From Clostridia bacterium (GTDB lineage Bacteria > Bacillota > Clostridia > Christensenellales > Aristaeellaceae): DNA of 59,650 nt. The notes beneath the pieces are model-generated. The model had not been told where the DNA came from and searched no databases. It saw nothing but the letters and a program-made list of their open reading frames with translations. The stretch lies in contig JAFZOG010000007.1 in NCBI GenBank assembly GCA_017550745.1, forward strand, positions 1 to 59,650. Reading direction: 5' to 3'. The translations under genes were made by a program, and so were the position numbers. Below are positions 41,382 to 47,447 of this stretch, piece after piece (position 1 is the first letter of the stretch; every line of letters begins with the position of its first letter).

Positions 41382-41906
41382 TTATTCGTTCATGAACGCC
41401 TGTTTGTTCAGGGGGATCAGGGCCGCTTTACGCCCGGAAAACACCTTTTCAAACACCTTGAACACGGTTTCCACCTGCACCACGCCGGTGCCGCGGACCA
41501 CTTCGCCCAGCATGGCCATGTTGGCCACCTTGTCGTTGCCCAGCGCGGCGCACCGGGCGGCCAGATCAACAGCAACGGCTTTGATGTCGCTGCGCTGGGG
41601 CTGGCGGTCGATGATGGATTCATTGTAGAACATGTATCCGCCCGCCTTGACCATGGGCTCAAACTTGTCCATGGAGGGGCGGTTCATGACCACGGCGATG
41701 TCCGCCTCGTAAATCAGCGGGGAGGATACGGGCCTGTCGGAAACGACCACGGTGCAGTTGGCGGTGCCGCCGCGCATTTCCGGGCCGTAGGAGGGCAGGA
41801 AGGTGGCTTCCTTGCCTTCCAGCATGGCGGCATACGTGATGATCTGGCCCATCAGCAGCACGCCCTGGCCGCCGGAACCGGCGAAAAACATTTTGTAGGT
41901 ACTCAT
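41382..41906 (-). CDS. 2-oxoacid:ferredoxin oxidoreductase, gamma subunit (VorC/KorC type)
   Basis: A 174-residue subunit. FFAGSGGQGVLLMGQIITYAAM and SYGPEMRGGTANCTVVVSD are signature stretches of the gamma subunit, which binds CoA and helps shuttle electrons. It overlaps the beta-subunit gene as ATGA at 41903-41906; the longer open frame is rejected. It is the last gene of the operon. Family assignment is firm. Which 2-oxoacid is used depends on the alpha and beta subunits. Confidence 0.92.
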   Translation of the reverse strand: MSTYKMFFAGSGGQGVLLMGQIITYAAMLEGKEATFLPSYGPEMRGGTANCTVVVSDRPVSSPLIYEADIAVVMNRPSMDKFEPMVKAGGYMFYNESIIDRQPQRSDIKAVAVDLAARCAALGNDKVANMAMLGEVVRGTGVVQVETVFKVFEKVFSGRKAALIPLNKQAFMNE

Positions 41907-42655
41907 GCCTGTTTCTCCTCCTTCGGCTCCTTGATCACGCCCAGGGGATAATACGCCATCACGTTGTTGCGCACCCACTCCAGGGCTTTCACCGGGGGCA
42001 GGCCCCAGTTGGTGGGGCAGGTGGAGAGGAATTCCACCAGCGTGAAGCCCAAGCCTTTTTTCTGGATCTCAAAGGCCCGGCGCACGGCTTTTTTCGCCTG
42101 GCGGATATGGGCAGGGCTGTCCAGCGCCACGCGCTCCACATAGGCGGCGCCGTCGATGGAGCCCAGCATTTCGCTCATCTTCACGGGCATACCGTTCAGT
42201 TCCTTGCTGCGCCCGTCCTGGCTGGTGGTGCTCTTCTGGCCGATCAGGGTGGTGGGGGCCATCTGGCCGCCGGTCATGCCGTAAATGCCGTTGTTGATAA
42301 AGAAGGTGGAAAACTTTTCCCCGCGCACGGCGGCATGGACGATTTCGCCGGTGCCGATGGAGGCCAGGTCGCCGTCGCCCTGGTAGGTGAACACGATCTT
42401 GTCGGGATGCACCCGGCGGATGCCGCTGGCAACGGCGGGGGCGCGCCCGTGGGCGGCCTCGCACATATCCACGTTCATGTATTCATGGGCGGTGACGGAG
42501 CAGCCGATGGGGGCCACGCCGATGGTGTTTCCCAGCTCTCCCATTTCCTCCAGCACTTCCATGATGATGCGGTGGGCGATGCCGTGGGTGCAGCCGGGGC
42601 AGTAATGGGTAGGCACGTCGGTCATGCCCTTGGTGTATTCAAAGATGGGCTTCAT
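41903..42655 (-). CDS. 2-oxoacid:ferredoxin oxidoreductase, beta subunit (TPP-binding)
   Basis: A 250-residue thiamine pyrophosphate-binding subunit. The TPP motif runs from GDGDLASIGTGEIVHAAVRG to INNGIYGMTGGQMAPTT. The N-terminal HYCPGCTHGIAHRI carries cysteines typical of the beta subunit. It is coupled by ATGA overlaps to both the alpha gene (42652-42655) and the gamma gene. With them it interconverts a 2-oxoacid plus CoA with acyl-CoA, CO2 and reduced ferredoxin. Confidence 0.93.
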   Translation of the reverse strand: MKPIFEYTKGMTDVPTHYCPGCTHGIAHRIIMEVLEEMGELGNTIGVAPIGCSVTAHEYMNVDMCEAAHGRAPAVASGIRRVHPDKIVFTYQGDGDLASIGTGEIVHAAVRGEKFSTFFINNGIYGMTGGQMAPTTLIGQKSTTSQDGRSKELNGMPVKMSEMLGSIDGAAYVERVALDSPAHIRQAKKAVRRAFEIQKKGLGFTLVEFLSTCPTNWGLPPVKALEWVRNNVMAYYPLGVIKEPKEEKQA

Positions 42656-43746
42656 TTCAATCCCTCCAATACAGCCTTGGCCCGCGCGGCCACTTCCAGA
42701 GAGGTGGGCACCATGCCGCCGGTGCGGTGGGCCAGGAATGCGGGCAGACGCCCGTTCAGCGCCAGTTGCACGTCGGTGATCATCTGGCCCATGGACAGCT
42801 CGGTGGAAATGACGGCTTTCGTAACGCCATAATCGATTTCGTCAAACGCCTTGTTGGGGAAGGGCCACAGGCTGATGGGCCGGATGAGGCCCGCCTTGAT
42901 GCCCTGCTCAGCCAGCACCTCGCAGGCTTCGCGGCAGATGCGGGCGGTGGTGCCAAAGGCTACCAGCACCACCTGCGCGCCTTTCAGGTTTTCGGTTTCA
43001 TAGCGGCAAAGCTCTTTCTCGGCGCGGGCGTATTTCTCAAACAGCTTTTCCACGTGCTTTTCCAGATCCTCGGGCTTCATGCGCAGGGACTTGACCACCC
43101 GGCGGTTCTGTTCGCCGCCCCGGTCATTGTAGCCGGTGCAGGCCCAGTCCCTTAAGCCCGCGATTTCGTTGGGCTTAGGCACGGGCTTAAACTCCGGCAG
43201 GCGCACGGGCTCCATCATCTGGCCGATCATGCCGTCGGCCAAAATCATGATAGGATTGCGCCACTTCTGGGCCAGCTCGGTGCCCTCATAGAGCAGATCC
43301 ACAGCCTCCTGGATGGAACTGGGGGCGAACACGGGAATCCGGTAGTCGCCGTTGCCGCCGCCCCGGGTAACCTGGTAATAGTCCGCCTGGCCGGGCTGGA
43401 TGCCGCCGATGCCGGGGCCGCCGCGGGAGACGTTCATACAAAGCAGAGGCACTTCGGCGGAGCACAGGAAGCTCATGCCCTCCTGCATCAGAGCGATGCC
43501 CGGAGAGGAGGATGAAATAAACACCGTACCTCCCGCGGCGCCCGCGCCGTAGGACATGTTGATGGCGCCCAGCTCGCTTTCCGCCTGCACGAAATAGCCG
43601 CCGTGTTTGGGCAGTTCCCGGCTCATATACTCGGGAACCTCGCTCTGGGGCGTGATGGGATAGCCGAAATACATCCGCGCGCCGCCGCGGATGGCGGCTT
43701 CGGCAAAGGCTTCGTTGCCTTTCATGAGCACTTTGTCGGTGGTCAT
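42652..43746 (-). CDS. 2-oxoacid:ferredoxin oxidoreductase, alpha subunit (VorB-type)
   Basis: A 364-residue alpha subunit. [32 protein letters not shown] is typical of the group usually annotated as 3-methyl-2-oxobutanoate (2-oxoisovalerate) dehydrogenase VorB, though 2-oxoglutarate forms (KorA) look similar. The middle has [13 protein letters not shown] and [17 protein letters not shown]. Domains I and II of the pyruvate:ferredoxin oxidoreductase family are both present. The start overlaps the ferredoxin gene as ATGA at 43743-43746. Branched-chain preference is supported only by resemblance and by the neighbouring T-box; it needs a phylogeny to settle. Confidence 0.88.
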
Positions 43747-43970
43747 TGGTCGCCCTCCTCCTTCTCATAGATGGCAATGGCCCCGTCGGGGCACATCAGA
43801 GCGCAGCTCTGGCAGCCGATGCACGCTTCTTGGTTCACCGCGCAGGCGGGATGATACCCCTTGGCATTGACCTGGGCGGACATGCCGATCACGCCCTTGG
43901 GGCAGGCGTTCCGGCAAAGCTCGCACCCTTTGCACCTTTCCGGACGGAAAACAAGCTGGAACGAACGCAT
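43743..43970 (-). CDS. 2-oxoacid:ferredoxin oxidoreductase, delta subunit (2[4Fe-4S] ferredoxin)
   Basis: A 75-residue ferredoxin with two clusters: [12 protein letters not shown] and [12 protein letters not shown]. It carries electrons from the TPP centre to free ferredoxin. The start at 43970 has GGAAAGGAG seven bases upstream; the longer open frame is rejected. It follows the ATPase gene by 37 bases and is coupled to the alpha subunit. Confidence 0.93.
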
Positions 43971-44007
43971 CTTTTTTCTCCTTTCCAAAACCAGAAATTG
44001 TAACAGA

Positions 44008-44685
44008 CTATTTATCCAGATATGCGGGCCGCATATACAGACCCAGGGGACGCAGCGGAGCCATGCCCGACAGGTCCTCCGGGGTGACGATGCCCGCGGG
44101 ATAACAGGTGAATAACAGGGGAACGCCCATCTCCTCAGAGAGGGCTTGCGCCTTTTCATAGCCCTCCCGGATGATTTCGGCGGTGGTTTCGCGTAGCAGG
44201 TGGGTGTTGTTCACCAGGCCGGTGACGGGGATTTGCAGTTCACGCTGGATCGCCTCCACGTGCTCCCGGCAGGCACCAATATCCCGCGTCTCATAGCGGC
44301 GGAAGTTCACCACCGCCCACAGCTCATGGTCGTTTCCCTCAAAGTATTTGCCAAACTGCCGCAGCACCCGCGCACCGGCGTCGTTGCCGCCCAGGTCGAT
44401 GATGGCCTGGCAGCCTGCATCCTCCAGCGGCGCGCGCAGGGCGGCGGTCAGGGCGGGCAGCTCCGCCGTGGCCCCGGTGGAATTGTACACGTCGCCGTAC
44501 AGGGCCACGCCGTTTTCCTCCAGCAGCGCCTTGCGCTCCCGGGAACGGAAATAAGGGTTCGCCACGTCCAGATCCACCACTGCCAGCCGCTCATACAGCC
44601 GATTTTTATCCCTGGCCAGCTCCATCGCCAGGCTCACCGACAGCTCGGTTTTCCCGCTGCCATAGTGCCCGGCGATCACGATCAT
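44008..44685 (-). CDS. P-loop ATPase (MinD/CobQ-like) heading the oxidoreductase operon
   Basis: A 225-residue protein with a deviant Walker A motif, [17 protein letters not shown], at the N-terminus, [15 protein letters not shown] (Walker A' / switch-like) and [14 protein letters not shown]. It resembles SIMIBI-class ATPases such as MinD, ParA and CobQ-related cofactor proteins. The start may be the ATG at 44685 or a TTG at 44694; neither has an ideal site. It is the first gene of the operon and is driven by a promoter at 44739-44767. A role in metal-cluster maturation or in regulating the enzyme is plausible by class and context but not established. Confidence 0.75.
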
Positions 44686-44738
44686 GCGCCGCAACGCCCT
44701 CTTCCCCCTTTCCCCGCGTCATTGGAAGCGCTTTTTTC

Positions 44739-44767
44739 ATTATGGCGCGGCGCGCGAAAAATGTCAA
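44739..44767 (-). promoter_or_regulatory. Predicted promoter of the oxidoreductase operon
   Basis: Minus-strand consensus -35 TTGACA (44762-44767) and -10 CATAAT (44739-44744) with 17-base spacing. It diverges from the T-box promoter, with about 55 bases between the -35 boxes. Confidence 0.75.
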
Positions 44768-44822
44768 CCCACAATGTTTGTATTTCTTCTGTACAGACAG
44801 AAAAAAAGGGCGAAAAAAGCTG

Positions 44823-44851
44823 TTGACTTTTCGCTGTTTCTCTGCTAAACT
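44823..44851 (+). promoter_or_regulatory. Predicted promoter of the T-box leader
   Basis: -35 TTGACT and -10 TAAACT with 17-base spacing. Expected start is near 44858, about 310 bases before the coding start. Confidence 0.65.
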
Positions 44852-44869
44852 ACATCCAATCGCATACCA

Positions 44870-45137
44870 AAGGCAATGACGAAGAAGGCGGGGTCTTGCG
44901 TCCACCGAAAGAGAGCCGGGGCAGCTGAAAACCGGCGGCGGAAGAGATCCAGGCTGTGGCTTCCGAGCCGGGCGCTTGAACACATTTCCAGTAGGGCGTC
45001 CCGTCACCGCCGCGTCAGGGCGGAGGGCTTCAAAAGGAGCCCATGAGCGGCGCTGCAATGCGCAATTTGAGTGGTACCGCGAGCTGAAAGGGATATATTC
45101 AGCCCGTCTCAAAGAAAATACTTTGGGGCGGGTTTTT
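44870..45137 (+). promoter_or_regulatory. T-box leader RNA
   Basis: Every canonical T-box landmark is present: AATGACGAAGAAG at the 5' base of stem I (about 44875), AGAGAG with a GCCGG/CCGGC distal stem (44909-44935), CCAGTAGGGCG after stem I (44988), and the antiterminator T-box TGGTACCGCG (45072-45081). The terminator is CCCGTCTCAAAG/CTTTGGGGCGGG then TTTTTT (45104-45137). The variable base after TGG is T, which pairs with a tRNA whose discriminator base is A. The specifier is not certain; GTG at 44956-44958 (Val) is the best-spaced candidate, while TGG at 44957-44959 (Trp) conflicts with the discriminator rule. It regulates the downstream fusion gene. Confidence 0.93.
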
Positions 45138-45170
45138 TATCTGCCCGGACTCACAAGGAGGATGTACGCC

Positions 45171-47447
45171 ATGCCCAGCACGCCCCAGGCCCCCGCTATG
45201 CTGCGGGATGTGGCCGCCCGTATCCGAGAACTGAAAGAAATCTCCGGCTTCACCACCGCCGAACTGGCCCGCATGACGGGCTTCAGCGAAGGCGAAGTGG
45301 GCCAGTATGAGACCGGCACGGTGGAAATGCCGTTCTCCTTTGTGCATAAAGCCGCCATCGCCTTTGGCGTTGATATGATGGACCTGATCGAGGGCACCAG
45401 CCCGCGCCTGTCCAACTACACCATCACGCGCCACGGCCAGGGCGAAGTGGTCACCGATATTGAGGGCATTGAGATGCGCAATCTGGCCCCCCTGTTCCGT
45501 AAGCGCATCGTGGAGCCCTACCTGACCCGGTATTCCTACGATCCGAAGCTGCAGGCCGCGCCCATTGAAACCGTCAGCCACCCCGGGCAGGAGTTTGACT
45601 ACATCCTCTCCGGCGTGCTTCGCGCGCAGATCGGCGAGCACACCGAAACCCTGCGGCCCGGCGATTCCATCTTCTTTGACTCCTCCACCCCCCACGGGCT
45701 GATCGCCGCCGAGGGACAGGACTGCGTATTCCTGGCCGTGGTCATCCCCGGCGAGGAAACGGATGAAAGGCCGCATGTGGATGACGTCGCCGTTCCCGCG
45801 CCCGTAAAGGCTGCCACCATCGCCGACAGATACATCGACACGACCACCAACGACGCGGGCACCCCCACCTCCATCCATTACCACAACATCGACCGCTTCA
45901 ATTTCGCCTTTGACATCATGGACGAGCTGGCACGGGAGCATCCCGACCAGATGGCAATGCTGCATTTGGATATCAATAAGAAGGAACGCCGCTTCACCTT
46001 TGAGGACTTCCGCAAGATGTCCAACCGCGCGGCGAACTACTATAAATCCCTGGGCATCAAGCGGGGCGACAGGATCTTGCTGGTGCTCAGGCGGCAGTAC
46101 CACTTCTGGATCACCATGCTGGCCATGGAAAAGCTGGGCGCGGTGGTCATTCCCGCGACGGATCAGTTGCTGTGCAAGGACTACATTTACCGCTTCCAGA
46201 CCGGCGAGATCAGCGGCGTGATCTGTACCAGCCACGGCCAGGCGGCTGCTGAAATCGAAAAAGCCCTGCCCGAGAGCCCCAACGTGAAGCACCTGATCTA
46301 CTGCGGCGGCAAGCGCGAAGGCTGGCATGACTTCGACAGCGAATACGCCGATTATTCCTCCCACTTTGAGCGCGCCGACGACGCGCCCGGCGGGGACGAC
46401 CCCATGCTCATGTTCTTCACCTCCGGCACCACAGGCTATCCCAAGCTGGTGTGCCACAGCCATAAGTACCCCCTGGGCCACTACATCACCGCCAAATACT
46501 GGCACAATGTCATCCCCGGCAAGCTGCACCTGACCATCTCCGACACCGGCTGGGCCAAGGCCTGCTGGGGCAAGATCTTTGGGCAATGGCTGTGTGAGGC
46601 GGCGCTGTTCGTGTATGACTTTGACCGCTTCCACGCCAGCGATATCCTGCCGCTCTTCAAGGAATACGACATCAAGACCTTCTGTGCCCCGCCCACCATG
46701 TACCGCATGCTCATCAAGGAAGACTTAAGCAAATACGACCTGTCTTCCATCGTCCATGCCTCCATCGCCGGCGAAGCGCTGAACCCCGAAGTGTTCCAGA
46801 AATTCAAGGAAGCCACCGGGCTGTCCATCATGGAGGGCTTCGGCCAGAGCGAAACCGCCGTCATCATCGGCAACCTCACCGGCATGATCCCCAAGCCCGG
46901 CTCCATGGGCAAGCCCGTGCCCCTGTATGACGTGGATCTGGTGGATCACGACGGCAAGCCCGTGCCCGTCGGCGAGGTAGGCGAAATCGTCATCCGCACA
47001 GACCATGGCCCCGCCTGCGGCCTGCTGACAGGCTACTACGGAAGCGAAGACCGCAATGTAAACGGCAACTGGCACGACGATCTCTACCACACCGGCGACA
47101 CCGCCTGGCGGGATGAGGACGGCTACTTCTGGTATGTGGGCCGCGTGGACGACCTCATCAAATCCTCCGGCTACCGCATCGGGCCGTTTGAAATCGAATC
47201 GGTCATTATGGAGCTTCCCTACGTCCTCGAGTGCGGCGTTTCCGCCGCGCCCGATCCTGTCCGCGGCCAGGTGGTCAAGGCCAGCATCGTGCTGATCAAG
47301 GGCAAGGAAGGCACGGAGGAGCTCAAGAAAGAAATCCAGAGCTATGTAAAGCAGCGCACAGCGCCGTACAAGTATCCCCGCATCGTGGTGTTCAAGGACG
47401 AACTGCCCAAAACCACCAGCGGGAAAATCCAGCGCGCGCTGCTGTAA
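45171..47447 (+). CDS. XRE-cupin-acyl-CoA synthetase fusion protein
   Basis: A 758-residue three-part protein. Residues about 8-72 are an XRE helix-turn-helix (LRDVAARIRELKEISGFTTAELARMTGFSEGEVGQYE). About 110-195 are a cupin (HPGQEFDYILSGVLRAQIGEH, LRPGDSIFFDSSTPHGL). About 225-750 are a complete ANL-family AMP-forming acyl-CoA synthetase: phosphate loop FFTSGTTGYPK, A5 GFGQSE, GDTAWRDEDGYFWYVGRVDD and the C-terminal catalytic lysine in LPKTTSGKIQR. The synthetase is closest in style to medium/short-chain ACSM-type enzymes. The start at 45171 has AGGAGG nine bases upstream; an ATG at 45162 abuts the site. It is under a T-box and divergent from the 2-oxoacid oxidoreductase operon. It may both activate an acid to acyl-CoA and regulate DNA. 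Confidence 0.9.
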   Translation: MPSTPQAPAMLRDVAARIRELKEISGFTTAELARMTGFSEGEVGQYETGTVEMPFSFVHKAAIAFGVDMMDLIEGTSPRLSNYTITRHGQGEVVTDIEGIEMRNLAPLFRKRIVEPYLTRYSYDPKLQAAPIETVSHPGQEFDYILSGVLRAQIGEHTETLRPGDSIFFDSSTPHGLIAAEGQDCVFLAVVIPGEETDERPHVDDVAVPAPVKAATIADRYIDTTTNDAGTPTSIHYHNIDRFNFAFDIMDELAREHPDQMAMLHLDINKKERRFTFEDFRKMSNRAANYYKSLGIKRGDRILLVLRRQYHFWITMLAMEKLGAVVIPATDQLLCKDYIYRFQTGEISGVICTSHGQAAAEIEKALPESPNVKHLIYCGGKREGWHDFDSEYADYSSHFERADDAPGGDDPMLMFFTSGTTGYPKLVCHSHKYPLGHYITAKYWHNVIPGKLHLTISDTGWAKACWGKIFGQWLCEAALFVYDFDRFHASDILPLFKEYDIKTFCAPPTMYRMLIKEDLSKYDLSSIVHASIAGEALNPEVFQKFKEATGLSIMEGFGQSETAVIIGNLTGMIPKPGSMGKPVPLYDVDLVDHDGKPVPVGEVGEIVIRTDHGPACGLLTGYYGSEDRNVNGNWHDDLYHTGDTAWRDEDGYFWYVGRVDDLIKSSGYRIGPFEIESVIMELPYVLECGVSAAPDPVRGQVVKASIVLIKGKEGTEELKKEIQSYVKQRTAPYKYPRIVVFKDELPKTTSGKIQRALL

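Follow-up and report, generated by a model that had tools for sequence, protein, structure and literature searches.

T-boxes switch genes on when the matching tRNA is uncharged – leader, specifier, UGGN bulge, and terminator being their standard parts – and it has been known since the 1960s that microbes of the rumen build amino acids from branched volatile fatty acids. A locus in the draft genome of a Clostridia bacterium raises the question of whether the two are joined. Within a stretch of 59,650 nucleotides (contig JAFZOG010000007.1 of assembly GCA_017550745.1; the window), a T-box leader precedes the gene for a single polypeptide combining an XRE-cupin part with an acyl-CoA synthetase, and an operon for a VorB-type 2-oxoacid:ferredoxin oxidoreductase with an accessory ATPase is divergent from it. 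All of these parts had been named in an original prediction made from the sequence alone, and all are present as judged by open reading frames (ORFs), Pfam, NCBIfam, and RF00230. Here, we propose that the locus very probably belongs to a starvation-induced salvage system in which activation, reductive carboxylation, and transamination would lead from isobutyrate to valine and from 2-methylbutyrate to isoleucine. The features on which the proposal is built are read directly from the DNA, and comprise the leader with its codon, the gene set, two classes of T-box, the rarity of ilvC and ilvD, and a change of codon 462 of the synthetase in step with the specifier.

The T-box leader lies at 44867..45114 (plus strand), where RF00230 aligns over the full model (positions 1-219) with 69 bits and an E value of 5.9e-15. 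A gathering scan of the whole window was empty because this score lies under the Rfam gathering score of 93; the leaders of relatives score from 40 to 106 bits, a few of them over gathering. The intrinsic terminator at 45101..45134 (plus), located by terminator and folding computation, has a folding z of -7.0, and stem I folded alone by energy (z +1.4) is uninformative. Read in the register set by the relatives, the specifier is GUG, a valine codon, at 44956..44958 (plus): in the relatives, the codon and one base stand ahead of a conserved CUUCCGAGC-like string, the codon being AUC in the majority and otherwise GUA, GUG, or GUC. A UGU (cysteine) specifier given by the Rfam alignment was rejected, because it is one base off from the register of the relatives, which lies one base later, and because the UGGU bulge for the tRNA 3′ end at 45072..45075 (plus; discriminator A) misfits tRNA-Cys with its discriminator U. 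The genome has a tRNA-Val with anticodon CAC whose ACCA end fits the bulge (30 of the 38 candidate tRNA places of the genome were scanned). An amino acid unconnected with either enzyme, which would have spoken against salvage, is not what the leader names. A second synthetase copy in the same genome (contig C38) is 69% identical and has the specifier AUC.

The association extends well beyond this genome. A scan of genome contigs gave at least 591 relatives of the synthetase, from which the best 80 loci were kept, so that close relatives are favoured in the counts from these loci; T-boxes were located with a core regular expression drawn from general knowledge. The original prediction had suggested a survey for co-occurrence of the fusion with VorB-type operons and T-boxes, and the outcome is positive: a T-box core stands ahead of at least one copy in 78 of the 80 loci, and VorA is present in 53 (and in 25 of the 31 loci of at least 18 kb). 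Specifiers were first read over the relatives without a codon filter. In the final set of 123 copies (two from the source genome), where only Ile, Val, and Leu codons were accepted and the Ile or Val one was chosen if several places fitted the frame (a choice made in the class-wide sample too, e.g. L095, L099, L100, L225), 65 are AUC (isoleucine) and 49 are GUN (valine), and the remainder consist of six without a core (marked noT), two without a readable codon (T?), and one at a contig edge. This set omits copies with an internal stop, fewer than 500 residues, or less than 35% identity, and includes three pairs at least 97% identical. Within L094-L122, L101, L106, and L110 have no readable codon, L096 repeats L026, and L098 was counted despite two stops near or inside its match; L212-L226 are not near copies of earlier sets.

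Both T-box classes occur in 35 loci, of which 31 are ordered Ile copy, Val copy, VorA on one strand. The common layout in relatives continues from the Ile-T-box and Val-T-box copies into ATPase-ferredoxin-VorABG and often a branched-chain aminotransferase; the IlvE gene is found in 31 of the 80 loci, every one also with VorA. Since vor is downstream of the Val-T-box synthetase in many relatives, coupling there would be by read-through. The divergent arrangement of the window, with vor opposite a Val copy, recurs at L010-L013; L031, L032, and L066 have a similar layout in which the copy is of the Ile class. The original prediction missed the isoleucine partner, as well as a leucine module described below. 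A class-wide sample of 391 genomes contains a match at E 1e-100 or better in 201, and among the matches listed (down to about E 3e-204) there are 80 full fusions spanning 23 family codes, a list that includes two copies with internal stops (G115, G088) and omits G386, which is cut by a contig end.

What acid does the synthetase activate? The fusion protein, of 758 residues, is encoded at 45171..47447 (plus; ORF from the ATG at 45171), and was identified by Pfam, NCBIfam, and structure matches, with HTH_31, Cupin_2, AMP-binding, and AMP-binding_C all in one chain (HTH_31 and Cupin_2 over cut-off). The nearest solved structure, first by sequence (E 6.8e-176) and by fold, is MacsMa (3etc), an enzyme that prefers 2-methylbutyrate in the account of PMC10455477. 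A preference for unrelated acids only, which the original prediction had named as fatal to it, is therefore not what this nearest solved enzyme suggests. The best NCBIfam match is MbcS (NF047394) at 428.2 bits, and membership of that family was rejected because the score is about half of the equivalog cut-off of 850.

One residue follows the leader codon. When 112 copies are aligned, columns 97, 102, and 462 never share a residue between the T-box classes, and 462 is the sole column with a single residue per class, Gly in 63/63 Ile copies and Ala in 49/49 Val copies. With two shorter copies and the class sample added (150 fused copies), the counts become 86/86 and 64/64; the window has Ala, encoded at 46554..46556 (plus). 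Position 462 aligns with Gly255 of MacsMa, beside Lys256 and one helix turn before Trp259, with the 3etc numbering anchored on Gly459, Tyr460, and Lys461 as named in part of PMC10455477 and on Lys256 from the PDB title. Trp259 is described there as critical for substrate binding (PMC10455477). By alignment, Lys256 and Trp259 are K463 and W466 of the fusion, both invariant in 32 aligned copies, and a predicted model puts 462, K463, and W466 in one helix, with low confidence at 462-464. Residue 462 is thus likely to lie beside the acyl pocket, where a change from Gly to Ala would fill about one methyl group, the gap between 2-methylbutyrate and isobutyrate, and so might set the substrate.

The two classes do not reflect a single split. 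A phylogeny of 122 copies gives support of 100 both to the main Val clade (43 Val, two unread) and to a separate clade of the six window-type Val copies, which falls among Ile types and adjoins the Ile copies L002 and L014 (99). A single origin of the Val copies was rejected by the approximately unbiased (AU) test (p 7.2e-6, with 35 of the 122 tree rows), and codon and residue 462 have therefore changed together at least twice. Among 38 columns differing between the main classes, the window copies are Val-like and their Ile paralog Ile-like in nine, with the reverse in two. Because codon and residue 462 agree in 150/150 readable fused copies, this is a clear-cut example of an enzyme pocket changing in step with a regulatory RNA, and one usable for substrate prediction.

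The oxidoreductase set is complete, and its genes lie on the minus strand: alpha at 42652..43746, beta (TPP) at 41903..42655, gamma at 41382..41906, and a two-cluster ferredoxin subunit, OorD/VorD-like, at 43743..43970 (the last three from Pfam and NCBIfam). The alpha subunit passes the NCBIfam cut-off for VorB (NF005507, 459.8 bits versus 399), and beta, gamma, and ferredoxin are under every NCBIfam cut-off listed. VorB is matched by each of the 16 alpha subunits scanned, with a best E value of 4.3e-169 versus 2.4e-100 for the next family. Grouping with KorAB, which the original prediction had allowed might undo it, was not found: alpha fits VorB better than the 2-oxoglutarate families, as measured by profile score and not by a phylogeny with characterised enzymes. 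The P-loop ATPase (44008..44694, minus; ORF, Pfam) is CbiA/ParA-like, with CbiA only below the curated Pfam cut-off and no NCBIfam family; its gene is found together with VorA in 52 of the 53 VorA loci, regularly between the synthetase and ferredoxin genes. The source genome also has a second VorB-type alpha (568 bits) on a 3.3-kb contig (L203, G000:C180:275-1333), sharing 96% identity with the alpha subunit of L071 and 55% with the one in the window, which represents either a second Vor system or contamination of the draft.

Genomes with the fusion commonly lack the usual route to branched-chain amino acids. In 42 fusion genomes, all drafts (the source genome and 41 chosen from the loci), matches over cut-off were found for ilvC in 3, ilvD in 5, leuB in 3 (those with ilvC), and ilvE_II in 40, versus 14/14, 14/14, 9/14, and 4/14, respectively, in the controls; leuB is a weak test, as 9/14 controls pass and G011, G022, and G023 have strong matches just or well below cut-off. 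Single absences from draft genomes are weak evidence, but the overall pattern of absence is not. In the class sample, ilvC at E 1e-50 or better is present in 17 of 80 genomes with the fusion versus 190 of 311 others (Fisher p 1.2e-10, inflated by shared descent), and 12 of those 17 belong to two family codes.

These observations suggest a route with three enzymatic steps. When valine is short, uncharged tRNA-Val would pair with GUG and UGGU and stabilise the antiterminator, and transcription would reach the synthetase gene. The synthetase would form isobutyryl-CoA from isobutyrate, ATP, and CoA, as its family, pocket, and codon indicate; VorABG, with reduced ferredoxin and CO2, would convert isobutyryl-CoA to 2-oxoisovalerate, a role to which the VorB family, the gene order, and the missing alternative route all point; and IlvE would yield valine from 2-oxoisovalerate. 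The paralog under the isoleucine T-box would run the same route with 2-methylbutyrate, and the two arms together would replace de novo synthesis. We infer the substrates and the reaction direction and also, from the way T-boxes are known to act, that starvation is the inducer. The salvage core of the original prediction is well supported by this genomic evidence, namely a GUG T-box, a synthetase of the 2-methylbutyrate/isobutyrate type, VorABG, an aminotransferase that many relatives encode in the operon, and, in the majority of the genomes tested, a lost de novo route to valine and isoleucine.

Several points weigh against salvage as set out here. Only the alpha subunit passes a Vor cut-off, and the VorB name is itself a prediction. 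The window has no adjacent aminotransferase gene, the one ilvE_II match of the source genome being on contig C174, and that genome is a draft (88.8% complete, with 7.45% contamination). In the 13 ilvC-positive fusion genomes with the locus fetched, a T-box precedes the fusion in nine and no core was found in four (all of family code f21), and salvage therefore does not always replace synthesis; the T-box module appears able to coexist with the de novo route, and mostly stands where that route is missing. Ala is also present at 462 in 9/10 relatives encoded as two genes without a T-box (L123-L132), and Ala462 alone is therefore no mark of isobutyrate; ten other relatives encoded without fusion have eight Gly, one Ala, and one Met. 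Finally, a single enzyme could serve both acids, as exemplified by MbcS of Staphylococcus aureus, which activates 2-methylbutyrate and isobutyrate with similar affinity and feeds membrane lipid synthesis according to passages of PMC10026030.

Other functions for the same genes can be envisaged. Enzymes of the Vor type can run in both directions, and archaea use them to ferment peptides; here Vor could act oxidatively in amino acid fermentation with the synthetase handling the acyl-CoA product. Yet a T-box turns genes on at amino acid shortage, the opposite of what breakdown would require, a synthetase of the AMP-forming kind consumes ATP and does not make it, and loss of ilvC leaves the cell needing valine and isoleucine, all of which make this use very improbable. 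We give an equally low standing to the idea that the module serves some other acid, such as phenylacetate, propionate, or a 2-oxoglutarate precursor, with an indirect T-box link. Acyl-CoA synthetases form a wide superfamily, the subunits other than alpha (beta, gamma, and ferredoxin) fall below all cut-offs, and Geobacter iorAB-paaK, behind a leader labelled tryptophan, has the same logic for an aromatic acid in the relevant part of PMC2700814; but the readable specifiers are Ile or Val codons (under labels that accept Ile, Val, and Leu only), the 16/16 alpha subunits match VorB, and the nearest solved enzyme uses 2-methylbutyrate. Somewhat less remote, though still unlikely, is a role in lipid synthesis, in which isobutyryl-CoA and 2-methylbutyryl-CoA would be primers for branched membrane fatty acids and the T-box would report shortage of valine or isoleucine, the usual source of primers. 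The best NCBIfam match favours it, albeit at half of the cut-off, since MbcS feeds membrane lipids (described in PMC10026030 passages); however, the neighbours are VorABG and IlvE, ilvC is rare in fusion genomes, and two copies split by Val and Ile codons suit amino acid supply better. Salvage of branched acids for valine and isoleucine thus remains the reading that we prefer.

The XRE-cupin part had been expected, as a regulator fused to the enzyme, to tie expression of both sides together, and this part of the original prediction is not supported: the helix-turn-helix (HTH) is acidic, no shared operator was found, and vor in the window has a promoter-like site of its own and no T-box. Over 120 copies, the net charge of the fused HTH averages about -6, compared with +1 and +3 for only two unrelated XRE domains, and the recognition helix is likewise acidic. 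Because the HTH is so strongly acidic, DNA binding is doubtful and the XRE domain is probably not a DNA-binding regulator. No palindrome or operator shared among the upstream regions of 20 loci was found. A candidate XRE operator palindrome upstream of the promoter was rejected: the window, L012, and L013 carry it, but it is disrupted in L009, L010, and L011 and is not the best palindrome in the other loci printed. With moderate confidence, the XRE-cupin part may be regarded as an enzyme-associated control domain that has lost DNA binding. In related two-gene forms, where the synthetase gene directly follows a separate XRE-cupin gene, the HTH is acidic in the same way; these forms probably represent the state before fusion, and those of L123-L132 have synthetases 44-46% identical and no T-box core. 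At L141, a separate XRE-cupin gene adjoins a gene for a synthetase that has Gly at 462, and the pair is preceded by a T-box whose specifier, as judged by eye, is AUC; this locus is outside the counts.

The spacing of the two sides of the window locus also needed correction. A shared region of 140 bases was predicted, but the ATPase and T-box starts are about 170 bases apart, the two coding starts are 477 apart, and each side has its own promoter-like site. On the plus strand, the order is promoter-like site (TTGACT-17-TAAACT, 44823..44851, from sequence), T-box leader, strong terminator, and synthetase start codon. The ATPase-ferredoxin-VorABG operon runs divergently from a minus-strand site (TTGACA-17-CATAAT, 44739..44767) with hexamers partly conserved in the window clade, and no T-box was found on the vor side within the window. 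Between the divergent promoter-like sites, a block around TGTATTTC (44778-44800) is common to six aligned members of the window clade, and is possibly a regulator site.

A third arm may serve leucine. A LeuA-like protein derived from 2-isopropylmalate synthase is encoded in the source genome (contig C174) and in 35 more of the 42 genomes, and among 30 such loci read, 25 show a T-box core no more than 450 bases away. Automatic matching gave a leucine codon at 13 loci (12 CUC, one UUG), and by eye an in-frame CUC is seen in most others. In the source genome, the locus with its CUC T-box (L092, G000:C174:26000-42000) runs from 10708 to 6687 on the minus strand; others are at L061 (2792-7590), L054, and L143-L172. 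Neither the TLRDGEQ nor the H.HND catalytic motif was found in any of 30 LeuA-like proteins, and the LeuA regulatory domain is present in both members scanned with Pfam. In 12 loci the gene is beside a TIM-barrel-acyl-CoA synthetase fusion, with an amidohydrolase in some. The sequence is consistent with a possible leucine arm in which a dead synthase might act as leucine sensor.

Two further observations concern neighbouring elements. At L040 (10588-12472), two extra genes separate the Ile and Val copies, one for a protein of 476 residues that fits no family with confidence and the other for a small protein resembling hydratases. On contig C38 of the source genome, another T-box core (L093, minus strand, 14994; bulge UGGC) lies ahead of ABC transporter genes; to judge by a familiar pattern, it is likely to be of the tryptophan type.

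Viewed across the class, we lean towards a broader history, with rather less confidence than in salvage itself. A large group of gut and rumen Clostridia may have swapped de novo synthesis for salvage arms for valine, isoleucine, and perhaps leucine, each with its own T-box and synthetase; the codon would predict the acid, because on two or more separate occasions it changed in step with one residue of the pocket (Gly to Ala), and the XRE-cupin part would be a former regulator turned control domain. Isobutyrate and 2-methylbutyrate would then be growth factors for many gut and rumen bacteria, and thus a cross-feeding link, which bears on isoacid feeding of ruminants.

The overall chemistry has precedent. 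Rumen bacteria and methanogens make amino acids from branched volatile fatty acids by reductive carboxylation (work of Allison and others, cited in passages of PMC7356843 and PMC10658910), with isobutyrate, 2-methylbutyrate, and isovalerate giving valine, isoleucine, and leucine. Neither a gene set, nor T-box control, nor a synthetase of its own for each amino acid is named in these passages, and they give no genes or control for Clostridia; the present locus supplies a defined set of genes in which the leader RNA spells out the amino acid. The Methanosarcina acetivorans enzyme MacsMa (PMC10455477; 3etc) is the best sequence and fold match, has Gly at the 462 position like the Ile copies, and prefers 2-methylbutyrate, but the solved chain has no XRE-cupin part. 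MbcS of S. aureus activates both acids but serves membrane lipids (PMC10026030, in part), and the window enzyme reaches only half of its family cut-off. Known branched-chain T-box leaders (RF00230) have the same leader, specifier, UGGN bulge, and terminator, whereas here the target is an acyl-CoA synthetase. Our literature search, which did not take in two central T-box surveys and the T-box databases, found no paper pairing a T-box with a branched-chain acyl-CoA synthetase, ketoisovalerate ferredoxin oxidoreductase, or isobutyrate, and a term search showed neither acyl-CoA nor ferredoxin in the main text of PMC2494555 or of PMC3766115. As far as these searches go, an acyl-CoA synthetase is a new kind of target for a T-box regulon, although we do not claim that it is absent from print. 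The nearest precedent found is iorAB-paaK of Geobacter, for which the relevant part of PMC2700814 describes a conserved leader labelled tryptophan, with the T-box footnote given for Geobacter leuA only. There, too, an oxidoreductase and a CoA ligase stand under amino acid biosynthesis behind a conserved leader, but the acid is aromatic and there are not two copies divided by amino acid.

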